Assembly: GCF_006965485.1 (NCBI RefSeq)
Contig: NZ_CP041360.1
Span: 558,001-622,000, forward strand
Reading direction: 5' to 3'
DNA: 64,000 nt
Source: Spirosoma sp. KCTC 42546
Lineage (GTDB): Bacteria > Bacteroidota > Bacteroidia > Cytophagales > Spirosomataceae
Below the pieces are notes generated by a model. It had not been told where the DNA came from and did no database searches. It worked only from the letters and a program-made list of their open reading frames with translations. Each line of letters starts with the position of its first letter. Position 1 is the stretch's first letter. The position numbers were made by a program, and so were the translations under genes. Of this stretch, positions 30,062-45,573 are shown in pieces.

Positions 30062-30622
30062 TTAATTGTCGGTTGATGTAACAGGGAGAATAGGGATGGG
30101 TTTGTAGAACATTATCAGCGTGCCAAGTCGCTTATTGGTGGACATGACCGGGGCAGAGAGTTCGTACGGGTTTTTATTGTTGAAATAAATAGTCTGCTGT
30201 TGGAGCAGATAACCTGGGAAGCGATTTGCGAATAAGATGCCCTGATTTTTCTTGTTCGTAGAGAGTGTAATCATCCCTTTGGCGTCTACCAATAGCATTT
30301 CCTGTACGCCTTTGTCTTTGACCAGCGTGTTAAAATACTCGTTTATTTCCCCTGCTTTGTTTTGTAATAGGGCGTTTCGGACAGCCCAGGCAAAGGTTTT
30401 CATGCTAAACGTAAGCTGTTGCTGGTTTACAAGTAGCTGGTTGTTTTTTGCTGTTACGCGCATTGTGTTACGCTCATGCCGAAACTGGTTGGTTAATTGC
30501 CAATTCCGGAAAAGAAGATAACTAATGCCAAGCCCCAGCAAAATAATGATACCATAAAACACATGCTTTGGGTTAACCTTGGAGGTACTTGTTTTCTGTT
30601 TCGCAGGATGTTCAGCCGTCAT
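30062..30622 (-). CDS. Single-pass membrane protein with sensor-like domain
   Basis: 186 residues: cytoplasmic Lys-rich tail, one membrane helix at 24-42 (VFYGIIILLGLGISYLLF), a helical stalk and an extracytoplasmic domain containing EMLLVDAKGMITLSTNKKNQG, which resembles the core strand-turn of PAS/Cache sensor domains. No output domain is present. Its promoter region carries a four-unit 11 bp operator array (30716-30754). It may serve as a stress sensor subunit; function unproven. It is followed by the MscS gene 36 bp downstream, so the two may be one transcript. Confidence 0.65.
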   Translation of the reverse strand: MTAEHPAKQKTSTSKVNPKHVFYGIIILLGLGISYLLFRNWQLTNQFRHERNTMRVTAKNNQLLVNQQQLTFSMKTFAWAVRNALLQNKAGEINEYFNTLVKDKGVQEMLLVDAKGMITLSTNKKNQGILFANRFPGYLLQQQTIYFNNKNPYELSAPVMSTNKRLGTLIMFYKPIPILPVTSTDN

Positions 30623-30715: not shown

Positions 30716-30754
30716 CTTAGGCAGACCTTAACGAGACCTTAGAATTTGATTAGA
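30716..30754 (-). promoter_or_regulatory. Operator array A: four hexamers, 11 bp apart
   Basis: On the plus strand: CTTAGG (30716), CTTAAC (30727), CTTAGA (30738), ATTAGA (30749). In gene sense (minus) these read TCTAAT, TCTAAG, GTTAAG, CCTAAG. The last unit ends 94 bp before the start of the 30062-30622 gene. Same layout as at 33800, 41764 and 45534. An 11 bp phase is typical of OmpR/PhoB-type regulators. Confidence 0.6.
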
Positions 30755-30780
30755 AGCAGCTTTGGCTAAGTCCCCGATGT

Positions 30781-32112
30781 TTATGCCCAGAGCGTTACTA
30801 ACTTCCTGTACAGGATTTGTATATTTTTCTTCTCGTAGTCGGTAGCGAGCGTTTGATTGGCGTAGGTTTTCAGTAGCTCTGCCTGTTGGCGGAGGATGGG
30901 CTTCCGATCATCGGAGCAGGTTGCCGCATAGACCAGGGCCAGCGCCCGCAGCAACCGCCGAAATACAGCGTGATTGCCTTTTGCATTAATGCGGGGCAGG
31001 TCAAATGCTAGCCGGATGTAATCCTCAAAATCCGTACTACGTACCAGTACGCGCAGGTGTTTCCCATCCGAGCGCAACCGGGCTGGGAACTCACGTCGGG
31101 CCAGTCGTTCACCAACAGCTCCGAGGTAATCGATGGCCATAATGGCAGTTGTGGTATCGTTAATACCGGGCGATAAAGCTTTCAGGGTAATATCAACTAG
31201 CTGCTGAATACCGAATGCAACGTCCTGTTCAACGTTTCGATGTCGCCCGATGCTCACATACTCCATCAGATCATCGGGCCAGTCGGCTTCTTCAGGTTCA
31301 GATCGTTCCATACCACTCCGTACACTAAAGAGTACAGAACCTTCGCCGATAAAGGCACCCATCTCTTTCTCAATTCGTAATACGACTCGGTGCCGGGTGG
31401 CCCAGCTCAGCAAACCATCTGTATTGATTTGCTGAAGATAACCCGTCTTCCTGGCTATAACCGGTCGCCAGCCCGTCTGCTCGTCGGCGTAGTCCAGAGC
31501 AGCTTTCGCCTTTTCTGGATCATCAATGGGTTCGCCAAACTGGTCGGGAAACAGCTCATTGATGGCGTTGTTTGTTTCGTGAAAAATGTGCTGGACAATT
31601 GTACCCGTCTGTAACGATTCGGCAATATGATGAATAAAGAAAATCAGGGCGGCTACACCACCCAAAGCCAGTAATAAACCCGCCAAAACCGCCGTTGATG
31701 GTACAAACTTCACCTCATCGGTACCCCGAATAGTACCCAGCACAATCAGGCAATAGGAGAATACCCCGACGAAATAACCCATAACGACCTGATTGACCCG
31801 GTCGCGCATGAAGTTACGCAGCACTCTGGGCGAATACTGGCTGCTTACCTGCGAAATGGTAGCGAGTGTCAGCGAAAAGGCCAGGGCGGCTACGGTCAGC
31901 ATGGAGCCAGCAATGGCCGATAACATGCCTCTGGCACCGTCGGCTCCCGACGCAAAGAGGAGCGGGAATTGTTTTTCGCCATGCCAACTGGTATGCGCAT
32001 CAAACCCGACCAGGCCATAGGCTAGTCCAAACGAAGCCAGAACCAGCAGACCCGGTACAAACCAGAGGGATTCCTGTAATTGTTGCCAATACTGGCGAAG
32101 GCGGGTAGGCAT
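30781..32112 (-). CDS. DUF2254 family membrane protein
   Basis: 443 residues. Four membrane helices in the first 165 residues, with the family segment SMLTVAALAFSLTLATISQVSSQYSPR and NQVVMGYFVGVF, and a long soluble C-terminal part containing DVAFGIQQLVDITLKALSPG and NDTTTAIMAIDYLG. DUF2254 proteins are predicted inner membrane proteins without known activity. The gene lies 38 bp after the fasciclin gene on the same strand and is probably co-transcribed with it. Confidence 0.88.
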   Translation of the reverse strand: MPTRLRQYWQQLQESLWFVPGLLVLASFGLAYGLVGFDAHTSWHGEKQFPLLFASGADGARGMLSAIAGSMLTVAALAFSLTLATISQVSSQYSPRVLRNFMRDRVNQVVMGYFVGVFSYCLIVLGTIRGTDEVKFVPSTAVLAGLLLALGGVAALIFFIHHIAESLQTGTIVQHIFHETNNAINELFPDQFGEPIDDPEKAKAALDYADEQTGWRPVIARKTGYLQQINTDGLLSWATRHRVVLRIEKEMGAFIGEGSVLFSVRSGMERSEPEEADWPDDLMEYVSIGRHRNVEQDVAFGIQQLVDITLKALSPGINDTTTAIMAIDYLGAVGERLARREFPARLRSDGKHLRVLVRSTDFEDYIRLAFDLPRINAKGNHAVFRRLLRALALVYAATCSDDRKPILRQQAELLKTYANQTLATDYEKKNIQILYRKLVTLWA

Positions 32113-32150
32113 ATAGGCGTGTGATGCGACAAAATTGACCTGAGCACTGG

Positions 32151-32735
32151 TTATCGGACAATGGGCCCTTTAGGCGAGTCGCGCTGGAGCACCTTGTTAA
32201 TCGAATACACTACGCCATTGGTTGCTCTTACATCGGCCTGAATCACGTCGGCTACGGTACCCCGCCCATCTTCTACGGTGATGTCATTCCCCTGTTTATG
32301 GATGGTTAATATCTGACCCGTCAGGTTGGTCAGTGTCTGGCCATCTTTCAATTGATCTGACGTTATGCGGCCCTTTACTACGTGATAAGCCAGCAGCTTG
32401 ATAAGCCGGTTTTTGCTCGAGGGCAGTAATAGTTCGGACAAGGAGGGTTCTGACAGCGCCGAAAATGCCCCATTGTTCGGCGCAAATACTGTATAAGGAC
32501 CTTTGCCTGAAGCCTGCTCAGTTAAGCCCGATGCTTTCAGTAACTGAAGCAAGGTCGTATGGTCGGGCGACTGGGTCGCACTTTGCGCCAGGCTGGTGCC
32601 GGTCTTTACGCCACTTGCCTTCAGCGTGGGATCGGACATTGTAGCGGAAGGGGACGTTTGGGCCAGCAGAGAATGTGACATGGATAATAATAGTCCTCCA
32701 GTGAGGCAAAAAAGCAGCGAATAGGGCAGTTTCAT
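32151..32735 (-). CDS. Secreted fasciclin-domain protein
   Basis: 194 residues from ATG 32735 (a second ATG two codons upstream is possible). Signal peptide ends SLLAQ. The fasciclin domain occupies about residues 55-190, with the H1 box KGPYTVFAPNNGAFSAL, the central YHVVKGRITSDQL and the H2 box TNGVVYSINKVLQ. Such proteins mediate adhesion or matrix contacts at the cell surface. A Ser/Thr-rich linker precedes the domain. It leads a two-gene unit with the DUF2254 gene. Confidence 0.9.
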   Translation of the reverse strand: MKLPYSLLFCLTGGLLLSMSHSLLAQTSPSATMSDPTLKASGVKTGTSLAQSATQSPDHTTLLQLLKASGLTEQASGKGPYTVFAPNNGAFSALSEPSLSELLLPSSKNRLIKLLAYHVVKGRITSDQLKDGQTLTNLTGQILTIHKQGNDITVEDGRGTVADVIQADVRATNGVVYSINKVLQRDSPKGPIVR

Positions 32736-32964
32736 AATCAACCGTTTTTAGTAAATAAGAAATGGGCAAACCAAACGGTCGGCTATCGATTTAACCTTGT
32801 GTAGTAATGTTTGTTTTTTAACGCCAGGCGACAACCGCCCTATTCCCAACCACTTCGTGATAATTCTATGCTAGAACACTAGTCGCCTTATTAACTCCGA
32901 CGTACCACTGCCTTTTAGAGACGTGAGCGCTTTCGATTCACTCCCATTTTTATTTTGCCGAAAA

Positions 32965-33380
32965 TCAGGGATGCCGAGGGGTAAGAACCGTTTTTACCCA
33001 GTATTCGTAGGTTACTTTAAACAACTGATCTAACTGGGCAAACGTACTTGGTTGACTAATAAAAGAATTTGCACCTAACTGATAAACGGCACGAATAGTC
33101 TGTTTTCCTCGCTACCGCTCAAAACAAGGACTGGAGTAGAACGAAAAGCGGACGTTGCTCGTAATTGTTGGAGTACTTCATATCCATTGATTCGGGGCAT
33201 ATCCAGATCCAAAAGAACCAGAATTGGTAAATTCTCTTTTGGGCTAGATAAAAGCTTAGCTAGTAATTTTTCACCGTCTTCAAAGAAGGTCACCTCACAA
33301 TCTGAATAGGCTTTTAACGCTTCTTCGATAAGAATTCTGTCATCATCATCTGCGTAAATACAGAACGGTCTATTAGTCAC
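32965..33380 (-). pseudogene. Single-domain response regulator, frameshifted
   Basis: GTG at 33378-33380. The first 95 codons encode a CheY-like receiver (acidic YADDDDR, LLDLDMPRINGYEVLQQL with phospho-acceptor, TPVLVLSGSEE). At about 33095-33105 the homologous frame changes; the continuation RAVYQLGANSFISQPSTFAQ and LFKVTYEYWVKTVL runs in another frame to TGA at 32965. Read in the original frame the protein ends early (101 residues) and lacks the Lys-containing loop region. The second part even has Gln where Lys is expected (SQPST for SKPST). Likely inactive. Confidence 0.75.
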
Positions 33381-33799
33381 ATTAATAAGAGATCAGTTGA
33401 ACATTAACTCAGAAATCCCATTAATACTATTGGCTGTAACTATTTGTTTTTATTTGGTTATATGAAGCTATTAACCTTGATTTCTTACCATGTTGATCTC
33501 CTAAACGTTCATCTAAATTAAAACTGCCTGGCTTTTCTTATTCCGGTACTGACGGACAATTTTAGCCACCAAAGCATTTATTTTGACCTGGTTGTTTCGG
33601 TACATGCATTCAAATTCACCAGATTAAACAAAAGAATAAAAACACTCGGACTCATCCGAGTGAAGTGCCAATGGTATCGCCACAACGGACTGAGACGTTG
33701 GTAGCCGTAACCTAATTCCCCTTTTCAATGAGGAATTATTTCAGTTTTCTACAGGATTACAGCTCGATAGCCCTATTATAATCGCCCATACGTAATTCC
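33381..33799. other. Intergenic, one short hairpin
   Basis: No gene. A perfect 8 bp hairpin CACTCGGA-CTCA-TCCGAGTG lies at 33643-33662. The operator array of the trehalose synthase gene begins at 33800. Confidence 0.4.
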
Positions 33800-33843
33800 T
33801 CTAAGCAGTTTCTAAGCAGATTATAAGCGCATTCTTAGTCTAA
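33800..33843 (+). promoter_or_regulatory. Operator array B upstream of trehalose synthase
   Basis: Four 11 bp units: TCTAAGCAGTT, TCTAAGCAGAT, TATAAGCGCAT, TCTTAGTCTAA. The final unit ends 123 bp before the ATG. A -7-like TAGTTCTG (one mismatch to TAnnTTTG) begins near 33863. Same unit order as arrays A, C and D, with the third hexamer always the weak one. Confidence 0.65.
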
Positions 33844-33965
33844 CGAATCAACTTGCTGCACTTTAGTTCTGCTCAACGTTTTAGCCAGAAATGCCAGTCC
33901 ATGCTGCCGGGTAAAGTTGCATAGCCTATTGGTAAGCGGCTAATAACCCTTAATTATATCTCCTT

Positions 33966-36900
33966 ATGTCAAAAACTAATCTGGACCTATCCGATAATCT
34001 CCTGTGGTATAAAGACGCCATCATTTACGAATTACACATCAAAGCCTTCCGCGACGGTAACGGCGACGGAATTGGTGATTTTCAGGGCCTGCTCGAAAAG
34101 TTAGATTACTTACAGGAGTTAGGCGTGACGGCCATTTGGCTGCTGCCGTTCTATCCATCACCCCTGCGCGACGATGGCTATGATATTGCCGATTATTACA
34201 CCATCAATAAGTCCTATGGAGATATCGAACAGTTTAAAATCCTGCTCGATGAGGCTCACCGGCGCAATCTGAAAGTCATTACGGAACTGGTCATTAATCA
34301 CTCCTCCGATCAGCATCCCTGGTTTCAACGCGCCCGAAAAGCTCCCAAAGGATCACCAGAGCGGGATTACTACGTCTGGACCGACGACCCAACCCAATAC
34401 AAAGATGTTCGGATTATTTTTCAGGATTTCGAGAAGTCGAACTGGACCTGGGATAACGAGGCTCAGCAATATTACTGGCACCGCTTTTTCCATCACCAGC
34501 CCGACCTGAACTACGACAACCCGCTGGTTCAGGATGAAGTGTTTAGGATGATCGATTACTGGTGCGAACTGGGTGTGGATGGGTTTCGGCTGGATGCCGT
34601 TCCGTATCTGTTTGAACGCGAAGGGACGAACGGCGAAAACCTGTCCGAAACGCATGCCTTTCTTAAAAAGCTTCGAAAACATGTAGACGATCATTTTCCC
34701 GGCGTGGTCTTTCTGGCCGAAGCCAATATGTGGCCCGAAGATTCGGCTTCATACTTTGGGGATGGCGACGAATGCCATATGAACTACCATTTCCCGGTCA
34801 TGCCCCGCCTGTTTATGTCGCTTCAGATGGAAGACCGGTATCCAATTACCGATATTTTCGACCAGACACCCGCCATTCCCGACAATTGCCAGTGGGCTAT
34901 TTTCCTGCGTAACCACGACGAACTGACCCTCGAAATGGTGACCGACGAGGAGCGGGATTACATGTATAAGACCTACGCGAAAGACCCGAAAGCTAAAATC
35001 AATTTGGGTATTCGGCACCGGCTGGCCCCATTACTGGGAAACAACCGGAAGAAAATAGAGCTGATGAACAGCCTGCTGTTTTCGTTGCCGGGCACACCCG
35101 TTATTTACTATGGCGACGAAATCGGGATGGGCGACAATGTCTACCTGGGCGACCGCGACGGCGTGCGAACCCCCATGCAATGGTCGCCGGATCGGAATGC
35201 GGGGTTCTCAACGGCGAATCCTCATAAACTATACCTGCCCACCATTCTCGACCCGGAGTATCATTATGAATCCGTCAATGTAGAAACCCAGCAACAGAAT
35301 ACATCGTCATTGTTCTGGTTCATGAAGCGGATGATCACACTGCGCAAAAAACACAAAGCTTTTGGCCGGGGGGACCTGAACTTTCTGACTGTCGAAAATC
35401 CCAAAGTGCTCGCCTTTACGCGAACCTATGCCGACGAAACCCTCCTGTTCGTCATTAACCTCTCGAAGTTTTCGCAGCCCGCCCAGATTGAGTTAACGGG
35501 GTTTAGTGGATACGTACCGGTTGAAGCATTCAGTCAAAATTCGTTTCCCATTGTTTCTGAAAATGAAACGTATTTTTTTACACTGGCACCACATGATTAT
35601 CAATGGTTCGTGCTGGAAAAAACCCATACGGACGTAATCCCTGCTTTCCAGTTACCGACAATTAATGTGGCGCTATGGGGGCAGATTTTGAGCAATGGCA
35701 CCCGCGAGCGACTGGAAACAAAGGTTTTACCGGATTATTTACTTCGAACAGACTGGTTTAGCGAGAAAAAGCAGACCATGCGGAGCATCTCTATTCTGAA
35801 TCATGCACCACTTCTGCTCCCGGTTGGGTCGGCCTACATACTGCTGCTAGAAGTAACGTATGAGCGGGGTTTGCCCGAAATCTTCCAGTTGATCATCGCA
35901 TTTGCCAGTGCATCGCAGGCGGCCAAACTTACCCACGATTGCCCACAGGCTATACTGGCGAATCTGGAGCTTGGCCATGAGTCGGGTATTCTTTGCGATG
36001 GGTTGTATCTGCCTGAAGTTCAGCAGGCGCTTCTTTACAAAATGACTGAAAATGCCAGGCATAAAGAAGGAAATCTGGCCTTTCAGTGTACACCGTTGCT
36101 GGCCGGTTATGTTCGGGAACACAGCGCCATAAAATCAAAATTGGCTACGTCCAGTCATCATTACGCAGCTATCATCTACGACCATTGTTTTCTGCTGAAA
36201 TTCTACCGGAAGGTAGATATGGCCATCAATCCCGATACGGAATTGACTCGTTTCCTGTCCGAAAACGCTGGTTTCTCCTATGTTCCAAAATTTGCCGGAG
36301 CCGTAGACATGTTTTCGGGCGGTGAGCCGATCCTGTTGGGGGTAATGCAGGAAGGGGGTGCCCGGCACGGAGACGGAAAAACCTACGTACTGGAACGGAT
36401 CAACAACTTTATCGAGCGCGTTCTGGCCCGCAATCAGATCCAGTTAGCGACAGCTGTTGATGTTCCCCGCGGTACCCTGAGTCAGTCCCTCGCACTCAAT
36501 GACTTACCCGTCGAAACGCAGGAGTTGATCGGCCCACGGGGCGCAGAACAGGCCCGGCTTCTAGGCACACGTATCGGGCAGATGCACCGGGCACTGGCTT
36601 CTGACAGTACGCATCCGGATTTTGCCCCGGAAGAATTCTCCCTGCATTACCAGCGGTCACTGTTTTCGGGTTTACAGTCGTTGGTTCGCGAAAGCTATCA
36701 GAGCCAGCAACGGAATCTACAACGCCTTCCCGACGATGTACGAGCAGAGGTTGAGCAGATGCTGGGTCGAAAAGACGACGTACTGAACCTGCTGAAGCGG
36801 ATTTACAGCAAAAAGCTGGACACCAGTAAAATTCGAATCCACGGCGATTTGCAGCTAGAGAAGATTCTTCTCACGGGTAAAGATATTGCCATTCAGGATT

Positions 36901-37316
36901 TCGGTGGCGATCCGACCCGCAGTTATAGTGAACGACGGCTGAAACGCTCACCCCTGCGCGACGTTGCGGCCATGATTCGCTCCTTTTATTACGTAGGATA
37001 CGAAGGTTTTTTGCGGACCAATCAGGTGACGGACAATGATCTGGTTCGTATTTTACCCTATGCCGAGTTCTGGGCGCACTACATGAGTGGTTTCTTTATG
37101 CACGCGTATCTGGAAGCGGTTCGGGGTAGTTCGTTTATCCCAGCCGAACCGGACGATCTGCAAATGATGCTGGAAACGTACCTGCTCGAAAAAGCCATTA
37201 CCGATTTGAATCAGGAACTCAATCACCGTCCCGATTGGGTGCGCGTTCCCTTGCAGCTTATCAAATCCATTGTCGTAGCACCCGTCCCGGTTGTTTCTGA
37301 ACCGGAACTGGTGTAA
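33966..37316 (+). CDS. treS: Trehalose synthase-maltokinase fusion (TreS-Pep2)
   Basis: 1116 residues. N-terminal GH13 trehalose synthase, about 1-560: catalytic Asp near 210 (GFRLDAVPYL), Glu near 252 (FLAEANMWPED), Asp near 318 (RNHDELTLE), and the calcium/DGNGDGIGDF loop. It interconverts maltose and trehalose. C-terminal maltokinase, about 600-1110, with IHGDLQLEKIL near 958 and QDFGGDP as the phosphate-transfer and metal sites; it makes maltose-1-phosphate from maltose and ATP. The fusion channels trehalose into the GlgE glucan pathway; no GlgE is in the window. Single gene with operator array B upstream and a terminator 12 bp downstream. Confidence 0.95.
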   Translation: MSKTNLDLSDNLLWYKDAIIYELHIKAFRDGNGDGIGDFQGLLEKLDYLQELGVTAIWLLPFYPSPLRDDGYDIADYYTINKSYGDIEQFKILLDEAHRRNLKVITELVINHSSDQHPWFQRARKAPKGSPERDYYVWTDDPTQYKDVRIIFQDFEKSNWTWDNEAQQYYWHRFFHHQPDLNYDNPLVQDEVFRMIDYWCELGVDGFRLDAVPYLFEREGTNGENLSETHAFLKKLRKHVDDHFPGVVFLAEANMWPEDSASYFGDGDECHMNYHFPVMPRLFMSLQMEDRYPITDIFDQTPAIPDNCQWAIFLRNHDELTLEMVTDEERDYMYKTYAKDPKAKINLGIRHRLAPLLGNNRKKIELMNSLLFSLPGTPVIYYGDEIGMGDNVYLGDRDGVRTPMQWSPDRNAGFSTANPHKLYLPTILDPEYHYESVNVETQQQNTSSLFWFMKRMITLRKKHKAFGRGDLNFLTVENPKVLAFTRTYADETLLFVINLSKFSQPAQIELTGFSGYVPVEAFSQNSFPIVSENETYFFTLAPHDYQWFVLEKTHTDVIPAFQLPTINVALWGQILSNGTRERLETKVLPDYLLRTDWFSEKKQTMRSISILNHAPLLLPVGSAYILLLEVTYERGLPEIFQLIIAFASASQAAKLTHDCPQAILANLELGHESGILCDGLYLPEVQQALLYKMTENARHKEGNLAFQCTPLLAGYVREHSAIKSKLATSSHHYAAIIYDHCFLLKFYRKVDMAINPDTELTRFLSENAGFSYVPKFAGAVDMFSGGEPILLGVMQEGGARHGDGKTYVLERINNFIERVLARNQIQLATAVDVPRGTLSQSLALNDLPVETQELIGPRGAEQARLLGTRIGQMHRALASDSTHPDFAPEEFSLHYQRSLFSGLQSLVRESYQSQQRNLQRLPDDVRAEVEQMLGRKDDVLNLLKRIYSKKLDTSKIRIHGDLQLEKILLTGKDIAIQDFGGDPTRSYSERRLKRSPLRDVAAMIRSFYYVGYEGFLRTNQVTDNDLVRILPYAEFWAHYMSGFFMHAYLEAVRGSSFIPAEPDDLQMMLETYLLEKAITDLNQELNHRPDWVRVPLQLIKSIVVAPVPVVSEPELV

Positions 37317-37328
37317 GTATGAATGGAG

Positions 37329-37361
37329 AGGCAGGCCATATCCCCTGGGTATGGCCTGCCT
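37329..37361 (+). terminator. Terminator of the trehalose synthase gene
   Basis: Perfect 12 bp stem AGGCAGGCCATA (37329-37340) with TATGGCCTGCCT (37350-37361), 9 nt loop; no long T-run. Confidence 0.65.
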
Positions 37362-37425
37362 GATAACCACCGTAAATATGGAACCTGTTTAAACTTTATT
37401 TTTTATATCTCCAATGCGCTTTAGT

Positions 37426-37528
37426 TTAACCGCAGAGAGCGCTGAGACAAAGCCGCAAAGAACGCTGAGTTTGCTGACTGAATTTCTTTGCGGTCTTTGC
37501 GCTTTGCCTTAGCGTTCTTTGCGGTTAA
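37426..37528. repeat. Long imperfect inverted repeat of the CCGCAAAGAACGCT type
   Basis: Two arms of about 44 bp (37426-37469 and 37485-37528) start TTAACCGCAGAGAGCGCTGA and its counterpart, around a 15 bp centre. Within the arms, CGCAAAGA/CGCTGAG-like words recur. It lies between treS and the trehalase gene. A related run of CACAGAGAACACTGAG words occurs at 60197-60245. Looks like a dispersed extragenic palindrome. Confidence 0.7.
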
Positions 37529-37571
37529 TTTGAAAAGTTTAAACAGCTTAATGATTATTGAAAACATTTGC

Positions 37572-39182
37572 ATGAGGCAACCAATAAAACCTTTTTTAAC
37601 GCTTACTTTCATCATTTTTAGCCTGGCTTCTGTTCAGAGTCAGCAGGTTCTCGAAAAAAAAGCATACGCCGTTACCCGGAATCTGGCTGGCCCCGACGAA
37701 CAGTTTGGAGCCTTATTCGAGGCCGTTCAGATGAAAGCCGTTTTTCCGGACTCCAAAACCTTTGCCGATTGTACGCCTAAATTTCCACCAGAAACGATTC
37801 TGTCCAATTACGAAATTGCCCGTCAGCGTAGGGATTTCAATCTGAAAGCGTTTGTTCTACAGAACTTTACGGTACCGATAAAGCCAGCGTCTGGCTATAC
37901 CAGTAAAGCCGGGCAATCAGCTCAACAGCACATTACAGATTTATGGCCTGTGCTTACCCGGCCCGCTTCTCTTACATCTAAGGCAGCTCAACAGGCCGGG
38001 TCGCTGATTTCCTTACCAAAGCCCTACGTTGTGCCGGGCGGACGTTTTGGCGAAATTTATTACTGGGACAGCTATTTCACGATGCTGGGTTTGAGGGCAT
38101 CGGGCCAGACTAGCCAGATTCGGAACATGGTCGACAATTTTGCCTACCTGATCAAAACGGTTGGCTTTATTCCCAACGGCAATCGAACCTACTTTCTGGG
38201 ACGATCGCAACCACCGTTTTTTTCGTTTATGGTGAGCCTATTGAGCGAAATGCAGGGACGCCGGGTGCTGATCAATTATCTGCCCCAGTTGCAACAGGAA
38301 TATGATTTCTGGATGGATGGGAAAGACCAACTGACCGCACAGCACCCCGCTCACCGGCGGGTCGTTCGGCTGGCCGAAGACGTTTACCTGAACCGCTATT
38401 ACGATGATAAACAAACACCCCGTCCGGAGTCGTACCGGGAGGATGTTCAACTGGCCCGACGCACCAAAGATCCGAAAATGCTGTATCAACATCTTCGGGC
38501 AGCAGCCGAATCAGGCTGGGATTTTAGCAGCCGCTGGTTTCGCGACGGAAAAAACCTTCAAACGATCCACACAACGGATTTTATTCCGGTTGATTTGAAC
38601 GCCCTGCTTGTTCATCTGGAACAAACCCTGGCCGAAGCGTATCGGATGAAGGGTGATGAGACTCAATCGAAAACGTACCTGCACCTGGCTCAACAACGGC
38701 GAGAGGCTATTCAACGTTACTGCTGGAATGCGAAAAGTCAGTTTTATTTTGACTATGATTTTGTAGCCAGAAAACCATCTACGGTTTATTCACTGGCGGC
38801 TGTCTATCCGCTTTTTGTACGAATCGCTACGGCCAGTCAGGCTATGGCTGTTGCCCGCAAACTGGAACAATCCTTCCTGAAACCCGGCGGGCTGACTACC
38901 ACGCTCGTCCGCACGGGCGAGCAGTGGGATGCGCCAAACGGCTGGGCTCCCTTGCAGTGGCTGGCTATTCGGGGTTTACGGAATTATAGACAGCTACCAC
39001 TGGCTGCTAAAATTAAAGCCAACTGGGTAAACGAGAACTTACGGGTATATAAAGCCAGCGGTAAGATGGTCGAAAAATACGATGTGGTCAGTACGGCAGC
39101 GGCCAAGGGCGGGGAATATCCTAACCAGGACGGTTTCGGTTGGACAAACGGCGTATTGCTGAAGCTTTTGAGTGAAAAGTGA
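37572..39182 (+). CDS. treA: Periplasmic trehalase (GH37)
   Basis: 536 residues from ATG 37572, which starts a good signal peptide (MRQPIKPFLTLTFIIFSLAS, ending VQSQ); the longer frame would begin inside the inverted repeat. Family signatures: PGGRFGEIYYWDSYF, PNGNRTYFLGRSQPPFFSF, the catalytic Asp in ESGWDFSSRW, QWDAPNGWAPLQWL and the Glu in GGEYPNQDGFGWTNG. Hydrolyses trehalose to two glucose in the periplasm. Next to treS, it can recover exported or scavenged trehalose. Confidence 0.95.
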   Translation: MRQPIKPFLTLTFIIFSLASVQSQQVLEKKAYAVTRNLAGPDEQFGALFEAVQMKAVFPDSKTFADCTPKFPPETILSNYEIARQRRDFNLKAFVLQNFTVPIKPASGYTSKAGQSAQQHITDLWPVLTRPASLTSKAAQQAGSLISLPKPYVVPGGRFGEIYYWDSYFTMLGLRASGQTSQIRNMVDNFAYLIKTVGFIPNGNRTYFLGRSQPPFFSFMVSLLSEMQGRRVLINYLPQLQQEYDFWMDGKDQLTAQHPAHRRVVRLAEDVYLNRYYDDKQTPRPESYREDVQLARRTKDPKMLYQHLRAAAESGWDFSSRWFRDGKNLQTIHTTDFIPVDLNALLVHLEQTLAEAYRMKGDETQSKTYLHLAQQRREAIQRYCWNAKSQFYFDYDFVARKPSTVYSLAAVYPLFVRIATASQAMAVARKLEQSFLKPGGLTTTLVRTGEQWDAPNGWAPLQWLAIRGLRNYRQLPLAAKIKANWVNENLRVYKASGKMVEKYDVVSTAAAKGGEYPNQDGFGWTNGVLLKLLSEK

Positions 39183-39193
39183 GCCTTATATAA

Positions 39194-39409
39194 TCAACCG
39201 CACTCCACCCAATTTCTCAACGCGATATTGAAACCGCTGACCGGAATCTGCCATTTAGTAGATAGCTCTTGGATCAATTCGGGACCGAAATAGCCATTTA
39301 TCCGTTTGTACGTAACATCAATACTATAAAGCGCTGTTTTTAAATCATCGGTCTTCGTCAACAATTTATCCGTTTGCTTTAGAAACCTGTACCCTTCCCT
39401 TCTGTTCCT
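39194..39409 (-). other. Start-less open stretch, possible gene remnant
   Basis: 71 codons open on the minus strand with protein-like composition (KTALYSIDVTYKRINGYFGP, then a Trp/Pro-containing tail) but without ATG; it overlaps the tail of the next gene in another frame. It may be the lost C-terminus of that gene after a frameshift. Not recognised. Confidence 0.25.
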
Positions 39410-39713
39410 TCAGCTTCACTTCCTGAGCTTCCTCAAACCAGCCCCACTCTTCTAGCCGGGCTAAAAAGACATTAACCAGTAACCGTTTCCTGCCTGGGCT
39501 TGCTCTGTCCAGTAAAGGTTTAATCAGGACTGGATTAGCCAACACATAAACCTGATAGGGGGCACCGATTGGTCCGAACTCCTCCGGTTCTAATCGGTAG
39601 GGTAGGCCGTATATAAACTTGGGGGGCTTCTTGGTCCAGTAGTCTGAGCCTAATTGACGGACGTTTTGGCGGGATGGGTCGTCGTACAGGTAAAATCGAA
39701 TAAGATAGTTCAT
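39366..39713 (-). CDS. Hypothetical protein (115 aa)
   Basis: ATG at 39713 (an ATG 27 bp upstream is less likely). Soluble and basic, with aromatic-rich first half (MNYLIRFYLYDDPSRQNVRQ, YGLPYRLEPEEFGPIGAP) and a helical second half containing LVNVFLARLEEWGWFEEA. I do not recognise the family. The C-terminal tail is low in complexity and the downstream frame hints that it may be shortened by a frameshift. Confidence 0.45.
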   Translation of the reverse strand: MNYLIRFYLYDDPSRQNVRQLGSDYWTKKPPKFIYGLPYRLEPEEFGPIGAPYQVYVLANPVLIKPLLDRASPGRKRLLVNVFLARLEEWGWFEEAQEVKLKEQKGRVQVSKANG

Positions 39714-39806
39714 CGTGCTTAAATCCAAGTTCCACTGCAATGCTTAATACTCAATTAGAATTTGATAGAAATAGGCAGTGGAGCGCTTGAAAGGCATGAC
39801 GAACTA

Positions 39807-41564
39807 CTACACTGCTTTATAAACCACGATCGATTCGGGCTCTAGAATAAGCGTATCCTCATCCGAGAGAAAATCTAGGGAAGCCCCAGGACCGTCCCAA
39901 ATCGGGTCTGCCGAATCGAGTAACTTCTGCCAGTTTTTTCCCAGAGACGGTAACGTAATCGGCTGATCTTCCCTCGAAAAGTTCATCAGACACAGTACGT
40001 GATTATCTCGACACCATCGGTGAAGTATCATCGTCTGCTGGTCTTTCCGGTGATTGATTTCTACCTGCTTCGGGTTCAGATGGTACAGTGCTGGTTGTGA
40101 TCGGCGTAAGGCGGTTAGCGCCTGGTAATACTGGTAAAGTGTTTTATTCGGAACCTGATCCAGTAATTCCCAGGCCAGCGGCTTATCATGGGTTAACAAA
40201 GCTGCTTTGTCTGTTACATGAACAGCCGGAACGGGACTGGTTTGCAGTGATTCCGCAAAGGGATTCGTTGCGCCCCATTCTTCGCCCATAAACAGGGTAG
40301 GAATATAGGGACTCATCATAATGGAACCGGCCGTCAGCTTTAACAATTCGAGGCTAATAACCTGTTCATCTTCTTCAGATACTGCATAATTACCAGTCTG
40401 CTTGTAGTTCTGCGAAACCACCAGCAGGGGGGCATCAGGTACAGTTTTTGTCTGCCGATCAAACAGTTCCTGCAGAATTGATGAAAATTGAGCATTATAT
40501 ACATAATCCTCCCGGTAGGTTTTCGTCTGGTGACCACCGTTCTTATCGGTAAGGTAGTAGCTTTTGCAATCATCGTCAGTCATTGCTGACGGAACAGCAC
40601 CAACTTCCAGGCCAGTTGGGCTATACATGGGAATTTCGGTCAGATCCTGCTCAACAAGCAGATAATACTGCCGACCGGTTCGGGTAGTCAATTGATTGGT
40701 GTGTTCCCGGATTTCCTGCAATAAATTCCCAAAGTCGCTTCGTGATGGGTCGGCGTTCAGACGAATTCCGTCGGCATGAAAATCACGGAACCACATCAGG
40801 GCATTTTCAATCAGGTAACGCCGATACGCTTCCCGCTGACGCTCATTTTGTTGTAACGTCTTGGTTGGATTGGCGGCTTGTTTACGGGGTAGATACGTGT
40901 CAAAACCCCGATTGCTGGTTGTTGGCTGATCAATTGAATTTGGGGCAATATCCAGAATGACCGCTATGCCCTCATAATGGCAGGCATTGATCAGGTATTG
41001 TAACTGGGTGGCCCCCCCGTAACACGATTGAACAGCATAGATAAAGGATTCCTTATAGTGCTGTTCTTTTGAATCAGGAAATGGGGCAACAGGCCTGATG
41101 ACGAGGGCGTTGATGCCTAATTTTTTCAAATGGCCGAGTTTGCTACTAATAGCCTGTAGCGTGCCTTCGGGCGTAAAGGTGTGGATGTCGAGTTCATAGA
41201 TAATGTACTCATCGAGGGGCGGGTTAATCCAACAGGAGTCTTCCCAGTAGAATTTGCCTGTATCTACTGCCTGAGAAGGGCCATATACACCCTCAGGCTG
41301 TGCCAGGGATGCCGGATCGGCACATTCCTTCTCATCGTCGAGCACAAACGTATACGTATCTCCAGGTTTGATCAGGTCGGTTTCCAGATTCCAGTAGCCT
41401 GAATTATCGTTTGTTAATGGAAGGTGTACAGGCTGATCATGGATAGCTAGCGCTACCTGTTTGGCCTGAGGGGCCCAGAGAACCACGTTCGCTTGTTGTT
41501 CAGTGGGAAAGGTAATGCCAAGGGTTCGTCTGGTTATATCGGGGTGATTTATCATAGGTTTCAT
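39807..41564 (-). CDS. TreZ-like GH13 protein lacking catalytic residues
   Basis: 585 residues from ATG 41564 (chosen because the longer frame overlaps a small gene). Domain order of malto-oligosyltrehalose trehalohydrolase: CBM48-like start (ANVVLWAPQAKQVALAI), DPASLAQPEGVYGPSQAVD, YELDIHTFTPEGTLQAIS, SYGGATQLQYLINACHYEGI, then the barrel. The nucleophile motif reads GIRLNADPS, so Asp is Asn (about 270); the acid Glu near 305 remains (LLVEQDL); the third carboxylate motif QNHDQxGN reads QNYKQTGN, so Asp is Lys (about 388). YNH-like substrate motifs are also changed. Expected hydrolysis is unlikely. No TreY partner is present. Confidence 0.85.
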   Translation of the reverse strand: MKPMINHPDITRRTLGITFPTEQQANVVLWAPQAKQVALAIHDQPVHLPLTNDNSGYWNLETDLIKPGDTYTFVLDDEKECADPASLAQPEGVYGPSQAVDTGKFYWEDSCWINPPLDEYIIYELDIHTFTPEGTLQAISSKLGHLKKLGINALVIRPVAPFPDSKEQHYKESFIYAVQSCYGGATQLQYLINACHYEGIAVILDIAPNSIDQPTTSNRGFDTYLPRKQAANPTKTLQQNERQREAYRRYLIENALMWFRDFHADGIRLNADPSRSDFGNLLQEIREHTNQLTTRTGRQYYLLVEQDLTEIPMYSPTGLEVGAVPSAMTDDDCKSYYLTDKNGGHQTKTYREDYVYNAQFSSILQELFDRQTKTVPDAPLLVVSQNYKQTGNYAVSEEDEQVISLELLKLTAGSIMMSPYIPTLFMGEEWGATNPFAESLQTSPVPAVHVTDKAALLTHDKPLAWELLDQVPNKTLYQYYQALTALRRSQPALYHLNPKQVEINHRKDQQTMILHRWCRDNHVLCLMNFSREDQPITLPSLGKNWQKLLDSADPIWDGPGASLDFLSDEDTLILEPESIVVYKAV

Positions 41565-41577
41565 AAGTAGGTTAGGG

Positions 41578-41709
41578 CTAAGGAGCCAGAAATTCCCGAA
41601 CATTAATTCGTTTTTGAATCATGTGGGCTAGCTTCCAGACTTGATAACCAGATAGCAAAAAGGCTATGGCTGAGAGGGCAATGAGCGATCCTGTAAGACG
41701 AGTTATCAT
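41578..41709 (-). CDS. Small membrane protein upstream of the TreZ-like gene (43 aa)
   Basis: ATG 41709 to TAG 41578. MITRLTGSLIALSAIAFLLS forms one membrane helix, followed by an amphipathic basic tail (HMIQKRINVREFLAP). It ends 13 bp before the next ATG, and operator array C lies 55 bp upstream of its start, so it is placed as the first gene of that transcript. Function unknown. Confidence 0.55.
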   Translation of the reverse strand: MITRLTGSLIALSAIAFLLSGYQVWKLAHMIQKRINVREFLAP

Positions 41710-41763
41710 GTTATTTCTGTTGCGTAGTTTATGGTTGATGGTAACCAAAGTACGCCGGGCCGA

Positions 41764-41803
41764 CTTAGAATAGGCTTAAGCAGATCTTAGAAAATCCTTA
41801 GAA
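41764..41803 (-). promoter_or_regulatory. Operator array C upstream of the small-ORF/TreZ-like operon
   Basis: On the plus strand CTTAGA (41764), CTTAAG (41775), CTTAGA (41786), CTTAGA (41797), exactly 11 bp apart. In gene sense TCTAAG, TCTAAG, CTTAAG, TCTAAG. It also lies about 150 bp before the nhaD start on the other strand and could serve both. Confidence 0.65.
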
Positions 41804-41954
41804 CAGTAGGTTTCGGCTAACAAATTGGTCCCCTGTGCGTATGTTAGCGGTCGTGAACCTGGCCTAACGTGTAGCAATAGATCAAGCTGTGCGTCCAGTG
41901 ACCGCAGCATTTTAAGTGGCGGCTTTGTTCTTCCTCGTTTTCGTCCATAGACTC

Positions 41955-43235
41955 ATGACATCAATTATTCTGGTCTTTATTGTTGGGTATGTCTTAATTA
42001 CCCTTGAACACCCCATTCATTTTAGCAAAACGGCCACGGCGCTGATTACCGGCGTTCTTTGCTGGACAATCTATATTCTTTCTGTTGAGCAACCAGAGCC
42101 CGTTTGAGATCAATTAGGGCACCATCTTAGCGACATTGCCCAAATCCTTTTTTTCTTACTGGGGGTGATGACCATTGTGGAGCTTATCGACATTCACGAT
42201 GGATTCACCCTTATCACCGACCGCGTTGCCACGCGAAGTCCTAAAGTGCTGTTGTGGCTCATCGGAATACTGACCTTTGTTTTATCGGCTTTGCTGGACA
42301 ATCTGGCCTGCGCGATTGTGATGGTGTCTGTCACCCGAAAATTAGTACGTAACCCAGAACAGCGTCGGTTGATGGCGGGAATGATTATTATTGCCGCTAA
42401 CGCCGGTGGTGCCTGGTCACCCATTGGCGATGTTACGACGACGATGCTCTGGATTGGCGGGAGGATTACTACCGAGCGCATAATTGGGCAGTTGTTTTTT
42501 CCCAGCCTGGTCTCGTTACTCATTCCTCTGATTGGATTAACGTTTTGGATTCAACCTCCAGCTGAAGCTGAAGACCTAACCGGTAAACGGGGTGTGAGCC
42601 GTCCTTATGTAACACCCCAGCACCGGCGTGACCGGCGAATTATGTTTGCCGCGGGCTTGAGTGCTATTTTGATGGTACCCATCATGAAGACGATCACGCA
42701 TTTACCACCCTATATGGCCATGATGCTGGCTTTGGGCGTCGTGTGGGGAATATCGGAAATTATACATGCCGACAAAGACGAGCAGGACCGTAAGCGCTAC
42801 ACGGCGGCCTATGCCCTGAGCAAGGTTGACATTCCCAGTATCTTATTTTTTTTAGGTATTCTCCTGGCGGTAAGCGCTCTGGAAGCAACGGAAACGTTGA
42901 CGATAGTTGCCCGTTGGCTGAATCAAACTATTGGTACTATTGATGTGATTATCCTCATTATTGGGGTGGCTTCTGCCATTGTCGATAATGTGCCCATTGT
43001 GGCAGCTGTTATGGGCATGTATGATCTAAGCCTGTATCCACCTGATGCCAGGTTATGGGAATTATTAGCCTATTGTGCAGGAACAGGCGGCAGTTTGCTG
43101 GTCATTGGCTCAGCAGCTGGTGTGGCCGTGATGGGCATGGAACGATTAGAATTTGGCTGGTACCTCCGGCGAATAAGTGGCCTGGCCGTTCTGGGCTATA
43201 TTGCTGGTGCAATGACCTATCTAGCGATGTATTGA
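41955..43235 (+). pseudogene. nhaD: NhaD-type Na+/H+ antiporter with an in-frame stop
   Basis: Full frame would give about 426 residues. The first 50 codons (MTSIILVFIVGYVLITLEHP, ATALITGVLCWTIYIL) are the usual NhaD start. A TGA at 42105-42107 interrupts the frame between VEQPEPV and DQLGHHLSDIAQILFFLLG, which is also conserved NhaD sequence in the same frame. From ATG 42165 the protein continues to the end (VELIDIHDGF, LDNLACAIVMVSV, NAGGAWSPIGDVTTTML, DNVPIVAAVMGMY). A protein started at 42165 (356 residues) would lack the first two helices. It may be recent loss of function, readthrough or a two-piece product. Confidence 0.8.
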
Positions 43236-43284
43236 CTTACCTTACAGGGTAGTGCGTTTTAATGTGAACTGGGTTGTTTTCAGG

Positions 43285-43548
43285 CTAATCGTAAGCGGGT
43301 TTATCAATGCTCGGCTTGTTGTTTGGATTGCGATTCGGATTCATAACCCGCACGTTTTCTCCTGGCTCATCGGGGCCGTCCATGTACTTATCCGTCAGTT
43401 CCTGGTTGGGAAGTTTCTCGTCGGGTAAATCGCTGACAGGTTGTTCGGCACTTACCCCACTGTGCCTTTCCGCCGATTGGTTTTCCAGCCCATTGGGTGA
43501 AATGGCCTGTTTGGCCTGGATGATAGCTTCTCTGTCTTTGCTTTCCAT
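43285..43548 (-). CDS. Small hydrophilic protein, unknown function
   Basis: 87 residues, no hydrophobic segment, rich in Asn, Pro, Asp, Glu and Lys. The second half (NQELTDKYMDGPDEPGENVR, NPNRNPNNKPSIDKPAYD) looks like a conserved motif of short Bacteroidota proteins and is probably disordered. Such hydrophilic peptides are common among stress-induced proteins; this is inference. It sits 45 bp downstream of the hydroxylase gene on the same strand. Confidence 0.6.
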   Translation of the reverse strand: MESKDREAIIQAKQAISPNGLENQSAERHSGVSAEQPVSDLPDEKLPNQELTDKYMDGPDEPGENVRVMNPNRNPNNKPSIDKPAYD

Positions 43549-43593
43549 ATCGTGATCGAATCGTTTACATGTGTATTGATCGTAATCTGTAAG

Positions 43594-44538
43594 TTATACC
43601 GCCCGTTCAACTAATTCATTCGCCGAAACGGTCTCCACGTTGGCACGCTGCTGCTTTTGCCGGGCTACTTCAATGGGGCTACCAAATAGGTAGAACCATT
43701 TACGACGGAATCCCTTCGCCCGTTTCACATCGTGGATAATGTCCTTCAACTCATGGAAGTTGATATGGAATGGATTGGCCTTCTGATCTATATTCGTCGT
43801 AATTCCATAGATGGGGCGCTCTTCTTCGGGCTGGTAGGTTCCAAACAGGCGATCCCAGAAAATAAAAGTTGCCCCGAAGTTTTTATCGATGTATTTCTCC
43901 TGCGATCCATGATGAACGCGGTGATTAGAGGGGGTAGCAAATACAAACTCGACCCAGCGCGGCATTTTTTTGATGTATTCGGTATGAACCCAGAATTGAA
44001 ATAATACCGCTAGTTGATTGGTCGTAAAGAAAATAATCGGATGAAAGCCAATGAGGGCCACCGGCAGGAAAAAAATGGTTTTGAGGTATTGAATCCAGCT
44101 CAGCCGGAACGAAACGCTCAGATTATAGTGCTCACCTGAATGATGAACAACGTGGGTTGCCCACCAGAATCGTTGTTCATGTGAAATTCGGTGCGCCCAG
44201 TAACTAAAGAAATCGAAGATGATGTAGCAGGGGATCAACGTCCACCACTGCAACGCCATACGCCAGGGCAACTGATTATACAGCCATACAAGCCCATAAA
44301 GCAGTCCTAGTTTGATCGCAAGACCAATTACCACCGATCCTAGCCCAACCAGTACAGAGCCCACAGTCTCCCATTTTTCGTAGAACGGATTTTCCTGAAC
44401 ATACGTAACGACCATTTCAATGGCGGTCAGTAGAAACATAATGGGAGCAGCCCATAAGATGAGATTAGGGGCTCCTTGTTCAATCATCCAGATATGGTCG
44501 ATTGAAATTGGGGGAGCACCAACTAGCGATTCACCCAT
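43594..44538 (-). CDS. Fatty acid hydroxylase/sterol desaturase family protein, AGMO-like
   Basis: 314 residues, about five membrane segments. The diiron histidine motifs are all present: WAHRISHEQRFWWATHVVHH (HxxxH and HxxHH), GEHYNLSVSFR, HTEY and NHRVHHG. This motif set and the WxTHxVHHSxExYNL layout match alkylglycerol monooxygenase-type hydroxylases, which cleave ether lipids with oxygen. It acts in the membrane. Possibly co-transcribed with the small hydrophilic protein after it. No regulator site was recognised upstream. Confidence 0.9.
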   Translation of the reverse strand: MGESLVGAPPISIDHIWMIEQGAPNLILWAAPIMFLLTAIEMVVTYVQENPFYEKWETVGSVLVGLGSVVIGLAIKLGLLYGLVWLYNQLPWRMALQWWTLIPCYIIFDFFSYWAHRISHEQRFWWATHVVHHSGEHYNLSVSFRLSWIQYLKTIFFLPVALIGFHPIIFFTTNQLAVLFQFWVHTEYIKKMPRWVEFVFATPSNHRVHHGSQEKYIDKNFGATFIFWDRLFGTYQPEEERPIYGITTNIDQKANPFHINFHELKDIIHDVKRAKGFRRKWFYLFGSPIEVARQKQQRANVETVSANELVERAV

Positions 44539-44638
44539 GATAAAGAAAGTTTATTTTTCGTTGAGTAGTATATAGAACCGGTTAAGCCGTTTCTGATCGA
44601 TCAGATCACCCTGCTCTTTTGGGGATTCCTGTCGATAG

Positions 44639-44878
44639 TTAAGTTAGTTGCTCTTGCCTAATCGGCTCAAAATGGTGCGGGTTTATAAATACTAGTGTAT
44701 GATCTGCCAGTCGGACCTGTTGCCAGGCTGGGCCACTCCCAAAAAGTTCATCCTGGAACCAGACCGTTTCTCCTTTTGGGATCTGGCCTCTGTACGACTG
44801 GGTTGGGTCGGCGGGATCGCTAATCCAGTCCGTATTCTGGATAGCCCGGCTAGGATGATTAAATCCGCTAATGGCCAT
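44639..44878 (-). CDS. Small conserved-type hypothetical protein (79 aa)
   Basis: ATG at 44878 (8 codons inside the longest frame). Soluble. Contains WISDPADPTQSYRGQIPKGE and VWFQDELFGSGPAWQQVRLA, a pattern of aromatic and Gly residues that looks like a folded SH3-like beta barrel. It is clearly protein-like. Function unknown. Confidence 0.6.
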   Translation of the reverse strand: MAISGFNHPSRAIQNTDWISDPADPTQSYRGQIPKGETVWFQDELFGSGPAWQQVRLADHTLVFINPHHFEPIRQEQLT

Positions 44879-45017
44879 TGAAGAATGACATTTTGGCTGC
44901 ATAACTTGTTGGAGTTTTACGATTTAAATTGCCCAAATGGTTTTAAAGAGAGTTATCTGGAAATCGTAAATTGTCGAATGAGAAAACCATTGAATTGCCG
45001 CTGAATCTGGGCTTGTT

Positions 45018-45485
45018 TTACTGGTTTTTTAATTGCTCTCCTGCATCTTCGAAGGAATTGCCCAGGGTACGCCCCGCCTTCTTAAAGCCTGCTTTTATTT
45101 CCTGCCAGGCATCTTCTGTTGCGTTTTTGGCAATGTCAATGTCTTTTGCCAGATCCCGATGTTCATTATCTAAATCGGCCAATTGCCGTTTAAGCGCGGC
45201 ACTGGTTTTAGCGCTCTGTCCCTTTATTTTAGCTTTTAGTTGCTCGATTTCCTGATCAAGTTCTTCCTGCTGGTGCTCCAGGTCGGCAACGACTTCATCG
45301 CGCTCCTGTTGAAAATCAGCCGCTGCCTGTTGGGCATCTGTTTCAACAGAATCGCCTGTTTGTTCCAGGGCATTTTCCGTTTCGGATTGATCGGAGTGGC
45401 TGTTGCAGGCTTGAAAGGAAACAAGGATGAGTGCCATCAGTACGTTGGCAACCCACAGTTTGGTTGATTTTTGGCTTAGTTTCAT
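45018..45485 (-). CDS. Coiled-coil lipoprotein
   Basis: 155 residues from ATG 45485, which gives the lipoprotein signal MKLSQKSTKLWVANVLMALI ending FQAC. The rest is a highly charged Glu/Gln/Lys/Ala heptad sequence (AAADFQQERDEVVADLEHQQ, DIAKNATEDAWQEIKAGFKK) that will form a long coiled coil; the end (FKKAGRTLGNSFEDAGEQL) resembles repeats of apolipoprotein-like or LEA-like stress proteins. Likely a periplasmic envelope protein. Array D lies 49 bp upstream of its start, which ties it to the trehalose loci. Confidence 0.75.
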   Translation of the reverse strand: MKLSQKSTKLWVANVLMALILVSFQACNSHSDQSETENALEQTGDSVETDAQQAAADFQQERDEVVADLEHQQEELDQEIEQLKAKIKGQSAKTSAALKRQLADLDNEHRDLAKDIDIAKNATEDAWQEIKAGFKKAGRTLGNSFEDAGEQLKNQ

Positions 45486-45533
45486 ACTGTCGGGATGTTT
45501 ACTATAATCACGACTCAAAACACCCATTTTTAA

Positions 45534-45573
45534 CTTAGAATGGTCTTAAGCTAATCTTAGAATCTCCTTAGAA
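45534..45573 (-). promoter_or_regulatory. Operator array D upstream of the coiled-coil lipoprotein
   Basis: Plus strand CTTAGA (45534), CTTAAG (45545), CTTAGA (45556), CTTAGA (45567), 11 bp apart; gene sense TCTAAG, TCTAAG, CTTAAG, TCTAAG. All four hexamers are identical to those of array C while the spacers differ. Confidence 0.65.

Follow-up and report, generated by a model that had tools for sequence, protein, structure and literature searches.

Which regulator reads the repeated operator-like arrays that precede trehalose and envelope genes in Spirosoma sp. KCTC 42546? The question was raised by a stretch of 64,000 nucleotides (the window; positions 558001-622000 of the single 8.66-Mb contig), for which a sequence-only reading had described four hexamers at exactly 11-bp steps at each of 30716, 33800, 41764 and 45534, all oriented toward the following gene. 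By direct reading and by rescanning of the window, these arrays were found to be base-exact, with a hexamer step of 11 bp throughout, and each points at the gene named here.

Array A, 30716-30754, minus strand: TCTAAT/TCTAAG/GTTAAG/CCTAAG, upstream of a 186-aa sensor-like membrane protein.
Array B, 33800-33838, plus strand: TCTAAG/TCTAAG/TATAAG/TCTTAG, upstream of treS-mak.
Array C, 41764-41802, minus strand: TCTAAG/TCTAAG/CTTAAG/TCTAAG, upstream of a 43-aa membrane open reading frame (ORF) and a TreZ-like gene.
Array D, 45534-45572, minus strand: TCTAAG/TCTAAG/CTTAAG/TCTAAG, upstream of a coiled-coil lipoprotein gene.

Judged from their sequences and distribution, arrays A-D likely serve as operators for one OmpR-family two-component system, namely the response regulator (RR) and histidine kinase (HK) encoded at about 5,683,290-5,685,479, which is predicted to activate genes for trehalose synthesis, envelope stress and microproteins. 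When compared with four perfect TCTAAG units (24 bases), the four arrays score 20-22 of 24; in 40 Markov-shuffled windows of 64 kb the highest score was 18, at 0.05 per window. Unit 3 is the degenerate one, and units 1 and 2 form a better conserved distal pair. All 39 bases of array B are identical in S. telluris. Direct-repeat half-sites in tandem, spaced by about one turn of the helix, as is characteristic of an OmpR/PhoB-family regulon, are thus present in the window, and also in 103 distinct arrays of relatives, whose 11-bp step is imposed by the search model.

A whole-genome scan with the 39-base pattern (up to three mismatches) yielded 10 arrays, and the reversed-pattern control none. 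They are confined to two places, the window with four and a second cluster at 5.679-5.693 Mb with six (pieces L011 and L012). A looser pattern gave 14 places (control, 1), namely the same ten and four extra, of which two (1,292,863 and 6,228,923) coincide with, or closely follow, the HK gene end of a paralogous OmpR-type RR-HK pair. More than half of the further sites outside the two clusters adjoin paralogous OmpR-type RR genes. The genome scan that had been proposed as a check therefore returned two gene clusters and a few further sites instead of random positions.

The second cluster encodes a TreZ-like copy that looks truncated, a TPS/TPP fusion, an OmpR-family RR, a HisKA kinase followed by a 69-aa microprotein, a coiled-coil protein, a TPR protein and an HlyD-AcrB-OEP pump. 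Of the six arrays there, five lie in front of one of these genes, on the strand of that gene; the sixth adjoins the RR gene, points away from it and precedes a second microprotein. The OmpR/PhoB-type regulator, which had been supposed to be encoded outside the window, has here a concrete candidate.

RR of the OmpR family, L011:15290-16000 (5,683,290 of the chromosome): PF00072 and PF00486 (Trans_reg_C winged helix).
HK beside the RR, L011:16100-17479: PF00512 and PF02518 (HisKA/HATPase).

A receiver joined to Trans_reg_C and adjoining a HisKA/HATPase kinase is the make-up of an OmpR/PhoB-family two-component system. Among the best 25 of 95 NCBIfam families the RR stayed under every cut-off.

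Association of the arrays with this RR was then examined in other genomes. Genome contigs were searched, and 59 loci with a relative of the RR were retrieved, taken with flanks of up to 10 kb on each side, and arrays were called at a score of 20 (best score in twenty shuffled 64-kb windows, 15.2). An array was present within the examined piece (5.3-20.7 kb) at all 38 loci with an RR at least 59% identical, and at none of the 21 loci with an RR at most 50% identical (pieces of 3.1-20.7 kb, some short). Records of the 38 loci are named Spirosoma, Fibrella, Fibrivirga, Fibrisoma, Rudanella, Larkinella, Arsenicibacter, Emticicia and, once, Flavobacterium, together with metagenome-assembled genomes; in genus after genus the arrays stand beside the RR or directly after the HK. 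In the record named Flavobacterium sp. SUN052 (L078) the RR is 91% identical and the array set resembles that of Spirosoma, which suggests that the record is mislabelled, contaminated or transferred.

Within the genus, 36 genomes including our own were compared for strict arrays (at most one mismatch) and RR orthologues (at least 83% identity); presence of the RR and its paralogues, placement of treS-mak and identities of the generic sites described below are as found among the matches listed. Strict arrays were detected in 28 of 29 genomes with the RR orthologue vs 2 of 7 without it (Fisher p 3e-4, phylogeny ignored); for the 32 genomes at least 90% complete, four being dropped, p was 0.008, again with phylogeny ignored. 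None was detected in 23 genomes outside the genus. Of the RR-negative genomes with an array, G019 has it at a distance of 4.7 kb from a paralogous RR of 55% identity. The sister-genus genome G036 (RR 73% identical) carries a TCTAAT-type array at the HK gene end. Among 30 loci examined for each of the TPS/TPP and treS-mak promoters, the TPS/TPP array was present in 26 of 28 RR-bearing genomes and in neither of two without the RR. As a single natural comparison, RR-negative G003 has orthologues of both TPS/TPP and treS-mak, with an array at neither. Conservation of the hexamers at orthologous promoters of related species, on which the earlier proposal depended, was thus found, and control of the trehalose/envelope stress set by one OmpR/PhoB-type regulator gains support from co-localisation of the arrays and their co-occurrence with the RR.

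We then analysed the position of the arrays relative to the promoter, using 103 distinct arrays (of 108) and counting offsets after unit 4. TTTG starts at offset 13 or 14 in 71 of the 103 (about 2 expected), and TTG lies at offset 14 or 15 in 85. Offset 14 is T in 97% and offset 15 is T in 98%; upstream of these, offset 11 is A in 70% and offset 10 is T in only 25%. The full TA plus TTTG consensus is found in just 5 arrays, so the TTG core is in register and the 5' half of the box is weak. As far as the consulted parts of PMC7366714 and PMC9723704 describe it, the Bacteroidota sigma-A -7 box is TAnnTTTG and the SM5 variant of F. psychrophilum is TAnnTTGY; both 3' halves, TTTG and TTGC, occur behind the arrays. 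The resemblance to Bacteroidota sigma-A promoters lies in these 3' halves; the arrays' promoters differ from them in that the first T is mostly lost and an activator array lies where the -33 element would be. With the -7 box taken as -12 to -5, as in the portion of PMC9723704 consulted, the array would span about -61 to -23. Such a promoter-proximal placement would be that of an activator, consistent with activation. TTGC arrays might use another sigma factor, because the same portion of PMC9723704 assigns SM5 to an alternative sigma factor. The register of the pooled arrays gives three putative boxes in the window.

Putative -7 box of array B, 33849-33856, plus strand: CAACTTGC, the TTGC-type variant.
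Putative -7 box of array C, 41746-41753, minus strand: GTACTTTG.
Putative -7 box of array D, 45516-45523, minus strand: GTGTTTTG.

In S. telluris the two clusters are one locus, with arrays spanning 45 kb within a stretch of about 47 kb. Parts of the window between 28864 and 45667 and parts of the second cluster between 12505 and 31054 (L011 plus L012 coordinates) align there, with gaps; window 41803-43648, for example, is unmatched. In that stretch treS-mak and TPS/TPP are divergent, with their arrays back-to-back, an arrangement also seen in G004, G020 and G027, among others. The break in the KCTC 42546 genome falls between these two arrays, each gene having retained its own. It is likely that the RR-HK system was split in this genome from part of its own gene cluster. 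The array is still present where treS-mak is 3.6 Mb from the RR (G023) or on another contig (G022). In the S. telluris assembly (G015:C1, near 8,010,831 and 8,012,740) TPS/TPP and treS-mak were each recovered as two fragments, as though a stop or frame change interrupted them.

Of the predicted targets, the 69-aa-type microprotein is conserved best, with an array in front of it at 32 of the 38 RR loci. The array beside the RR that points away from it seemed at first to have no target; its flank was found to encode the second microprotein.

69-aa microprotein, L011:17561-17767, plus strand: after the kinase gene, with one C-terminal hydrophobic stretch and the motif PDWL...LLTLLIAWLVDIPALL.
Second microprotein family (SYFTSAWFG...KLPPHY), L011:14828-15031, minus strand: behind the reversed array beside the RR.

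Both are predicted, by eye, to be single-pass. The family of the 69-aa microprotein comprises 74 proteins including our own, from Spirosoma, Larkinella, Rudanella, Fibrella and kin; no precomputed Pfam domain and no named function was found for these 74, which are 'hypothetical' where named. Predicted targets also include TPS/TPP, the TreZ-like enzyme, treS-mak, the 186-aa sensor-like protein and an sll1863-family lipoprotein with a fatty acid hydroxylase, as well as DUF4136, UspA, a mechanosensitive channel, TPR proteins, the HlyD pump and a Na/H exchanger. In 30 pieces of relatives, picked from the matches listed, a relative of this gene set was located within 2.5 kb downstream of 48 of 56 arrays, some being weak (down to 34% identity); seven had none and one had only a 33% kinase match. 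For pieces not centred on the RR the count was 26 of 32 (among them, L236 is still some 16-22 kb from an RR and L250 adjoins a second RR copy).

Is this promoter design restricted to one system? A generic pattern, four YTAAK units at 11 bp with TTTG 14 nt on, was found at 17 places in the KCTC 42546 genome (up to two mismatches) and at none when reversed. The 17 are nine regulon arrays, one shifted duplicate of array A and seven others; four of these seven (8,164,539; 4,640,870; 6,228,946; 4,463,860) have a full-length OmpR-type RR gene no more than 4 kb away, where about 0.15 would be expected for seven sites, 0.0208 of the genome being within 5 kb of such an RR. In 59 genomes the pattern (at most one mismatch) gave 232 sites vs 8 reversed; with TTTG shifted by 3 nt there were 4 sites vs 11 reversed, 8 of the 11 in one genome.

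Arrays of four paralogous OmpR-type systems, at or after the kinase gene end: L206:5863, L207:5923, L208:5538 and L220:4368.

We therefore lean, with some reserve, to the conclusion that OmpR-family RRs of the Spirosoma group share one promoter grammar with a paralogue-specific hexamer, that is, four head-to-tail half-sites at 11 bp and 14 nt to the TTTG of the -7 box. Given such a shared grammar, the regulon of each such two-component system would be readable from sequence. For the present system the top target would be the microprotein beside its own kinase, which would probably feed back on that kinase. By eye, the L207 array runs on to about six units. Genes next to the arrays of the paralogous systems encode a sulfate permease (L206), an OEP/RND pump (L207) and a 325-aa protein (L208), the last matching no Pfam family at cut-off. 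A TTTAAT-type four-unit array with TTTG in register (L254; G000:C1:5434181) lies upstream of an HlyD/CusB-like gene, with close matches in other genomes of the genus among the matches listed.

Several observations weigh against assignment of the arrays to this one RR. The recognition-helix core TNxxEVYINYLRKKID is common, with small changes, to paralogous RRs 49-61% identical, so that another RR could bind the arrays and cross-talk is possible; the choice of this RR accordingly rests on location and co-occurrence. It is conceivable, although we consider it unlikely, that several paralogous OmpR-type RRs read the TCTAAG arrays as a common stress node of more than one two-component system. This would agree with the shared core, with the TCTAAT and TTTAAG arrays adjoining paralogous RR-HK pairs, and with RR-negative G003, which keeps one good array at the D-type lipoprotein operon. 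The TCTAAG arrays, however, cluster at the locus of this RR and follow its presence, and the nearest paralogue (61%) has a TTTAAG array of its own and counterparts in RR-negative G001, G005, G019 and G034. To be set on the same unfavourable side are RR-bearing G016, with no strict array and looser ones at the microprotein and HlyD genes; RR-bearing G007 and G010, without the TPS/TPP array; the treS-mak promoter, at which just 13 of 26 RR-bearing genomes have a complete array; the incompleteness of G012 (80%) and G033 (71%), two of the seven RR-negative genomes; and array A, with neither TTTG nor TTGC at the usual offset and thus no canonical -7 box. An unbiased search for four-fold repeats at 17 paralogous RR loci of the KCTC 42546 genome is likewise not specific to 11 bp: a step of 11 bp gave 8 matches, 7 bp gave 9 and 9 bp gave 8. 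From this search only the positions of arrays directly following the HK were used, ahead of the generic-pattern scan with its controls.

Direct repeats as such also occur beyond the sites of OmpR proteins, and a regulator of another family (for instance LytTR-type) or a repressor might bind the arrays, the link to the RR being an incidental clustering of stress genes. We regard this as improbable: the constant distance from the -7 box agrees with an activator, the arrays adjoin the RR or directly follow the HK across genera, and the same layout recurs at paralogous RR-HK pairs. More improbable still is an origin of the arrays by duplication of one promoter segment, with descent rather than selection accounting for their persistence. 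Array C does resemble the second-cluster array at 5,679,236 (83% over 78 bp), and the spacer ahead of unit 2 (spacer 1) shows partial conservation, as xAAAT or similar; spacers 2 and 3, however, are variable, in contrast to hexamers, 11-bp step and -7 register, all of which are maintained from genus to genus.

If arrays A-D are operators of the single RR-HK system, the HK would sense an envelope or osmotic signal. Two tandem RR dimers would fill the array on roughly one helix face, the distal pair (units 1 and 2) being occupied first and the proximal pair next. The proximal pair, over the -33 region, would help the vegetative sigma factor to engage a promoter with a weak 5' half of the -7 box. 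The RR would induce the microprotein encoded beside the HK, a possible feedback partner.

The Pho boxes of E. coli PhoB and B. subtilis PhoP consist of 11-bp direct repeat units, and the site overlaps the -35 region. The present system is alike in combining an OmpR/PhoB-family RR with 11-bp direct repeat units, but differs in the hexamer, in the four units set near base-exactly from a Bacteroidota -7 box, and in the trehalose and envelope targets in place of phosphate genes. The pstS gene of S. lividans has two 11-bp direct repeat units in tandem, according to the part of PMC2605767 consulted. The RR is under the PhoB cut-offs (TIGR02154, 169.9 of 296.2 bits; Bacteroidota PhoB NF053854, 154.5 of 270). 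The best NCBIfam matches of RR and HK are to the CzcR/CopR/SilR type (TIGR01387, 239.2 bits; TIGR01386, 171.8 bits), a likeness shared by the RND pump among the predicted targets; both are under the heavy-metal cut-offs (279.2 and 292.55 bits), leaving the RR outside CzcR/CopR/SilR. The head-to-tail arrays described here also differ from the box of the silver regulator AgrR, which the consulted part of PMC7380067 gives as inverted (6-4-6) and, at some operators, supplemented by a further direct half-site. Full-text literature searches, in a collection thin in subscription papers and with sources seen in part, returned no description of such arrays or regulon; a match on TCTAAG direct repeats with a response regulator concerned, in the portion retrieved, Serratia PhoBR. 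The sequence-only reading is extended here by the further predicted regulon members, the constant distance to the -7 box, the microproteins and a matching layout at paralogous RRs. If correct, the near base-exact operator-promoter geometry would allow prediction of whole regulons for Bacteroidota sensors of unknown signal, and three trehalose enzymes, an RND pump, stress lipoproteins and two unannotated microprotein families would be tied to one likely regulator.

The genes beside the window arrays are as follows.

30062-30622, minus strand: 186-aa membrane protein, predicted target of array A.
33966-37316, plus strand: TreS-maltokinase fusion (treS-mak), behind array B.
37488-39182, plus strand: trehalase, after treS-mak.
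39807-41603, minus strand: TreZ-like GH13 enzyme, 320 bits, under the NCBIfam TreZ cut-off of 538.8.
41578-41709, minus strand: 43-aa ORF that overlaps the TreZ-like gene start and has, by eye, one hydrophobic stretch.
43594-44538, minus strand: fatty acid hydroxylase, downstream of array D.
45018-45485, minus strand: 155-aa lipoprotein, sll1863-family stress protein (NF052504, 49.7 bits, cut-off 35).

Two RR genes with a full output domain were found among the part of the window ORFs scanned, 26556-28607 and 53250-54764. Both encode sigma-54 activators with a Fis-type helix-turn-helix, not OmpR-type proteins, and were rejected as array regulators; they belong to kinase-activator pairs (24299-28607 and 50881-54764) that flank the region, with no link to the arrays seen. 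A receiver-domain fragment at 33075-33380, near the breakpoint beside array B, was also rejected, having no DNA-binding or output domain.

The 186-aa protein matched no Pfam or NCBIfam family; its gene family is also preceded by an array in relatives L232-L237, L136 and L139. The trehalase gene is possibly co-transcribed with treS-mak. The TreZ-like copy of the second cluster (L011:11349-12521, plus strand) has 390 aa vs 598 aa in the window and is 54% identical; it looks truncated because its end overlaps the TPS/TPP array. The 43-aa ORF has relatives at arrays in related genomes. The lipoprotein more likely starts at 45485, because the 169-aa ORF listed at 45527 begins upstream of the putative -7 box. 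The order of lipoprotein and fatty acid hydroxylase genes behind array D is kept in L242, L245, L246, L134, L140 and L214.

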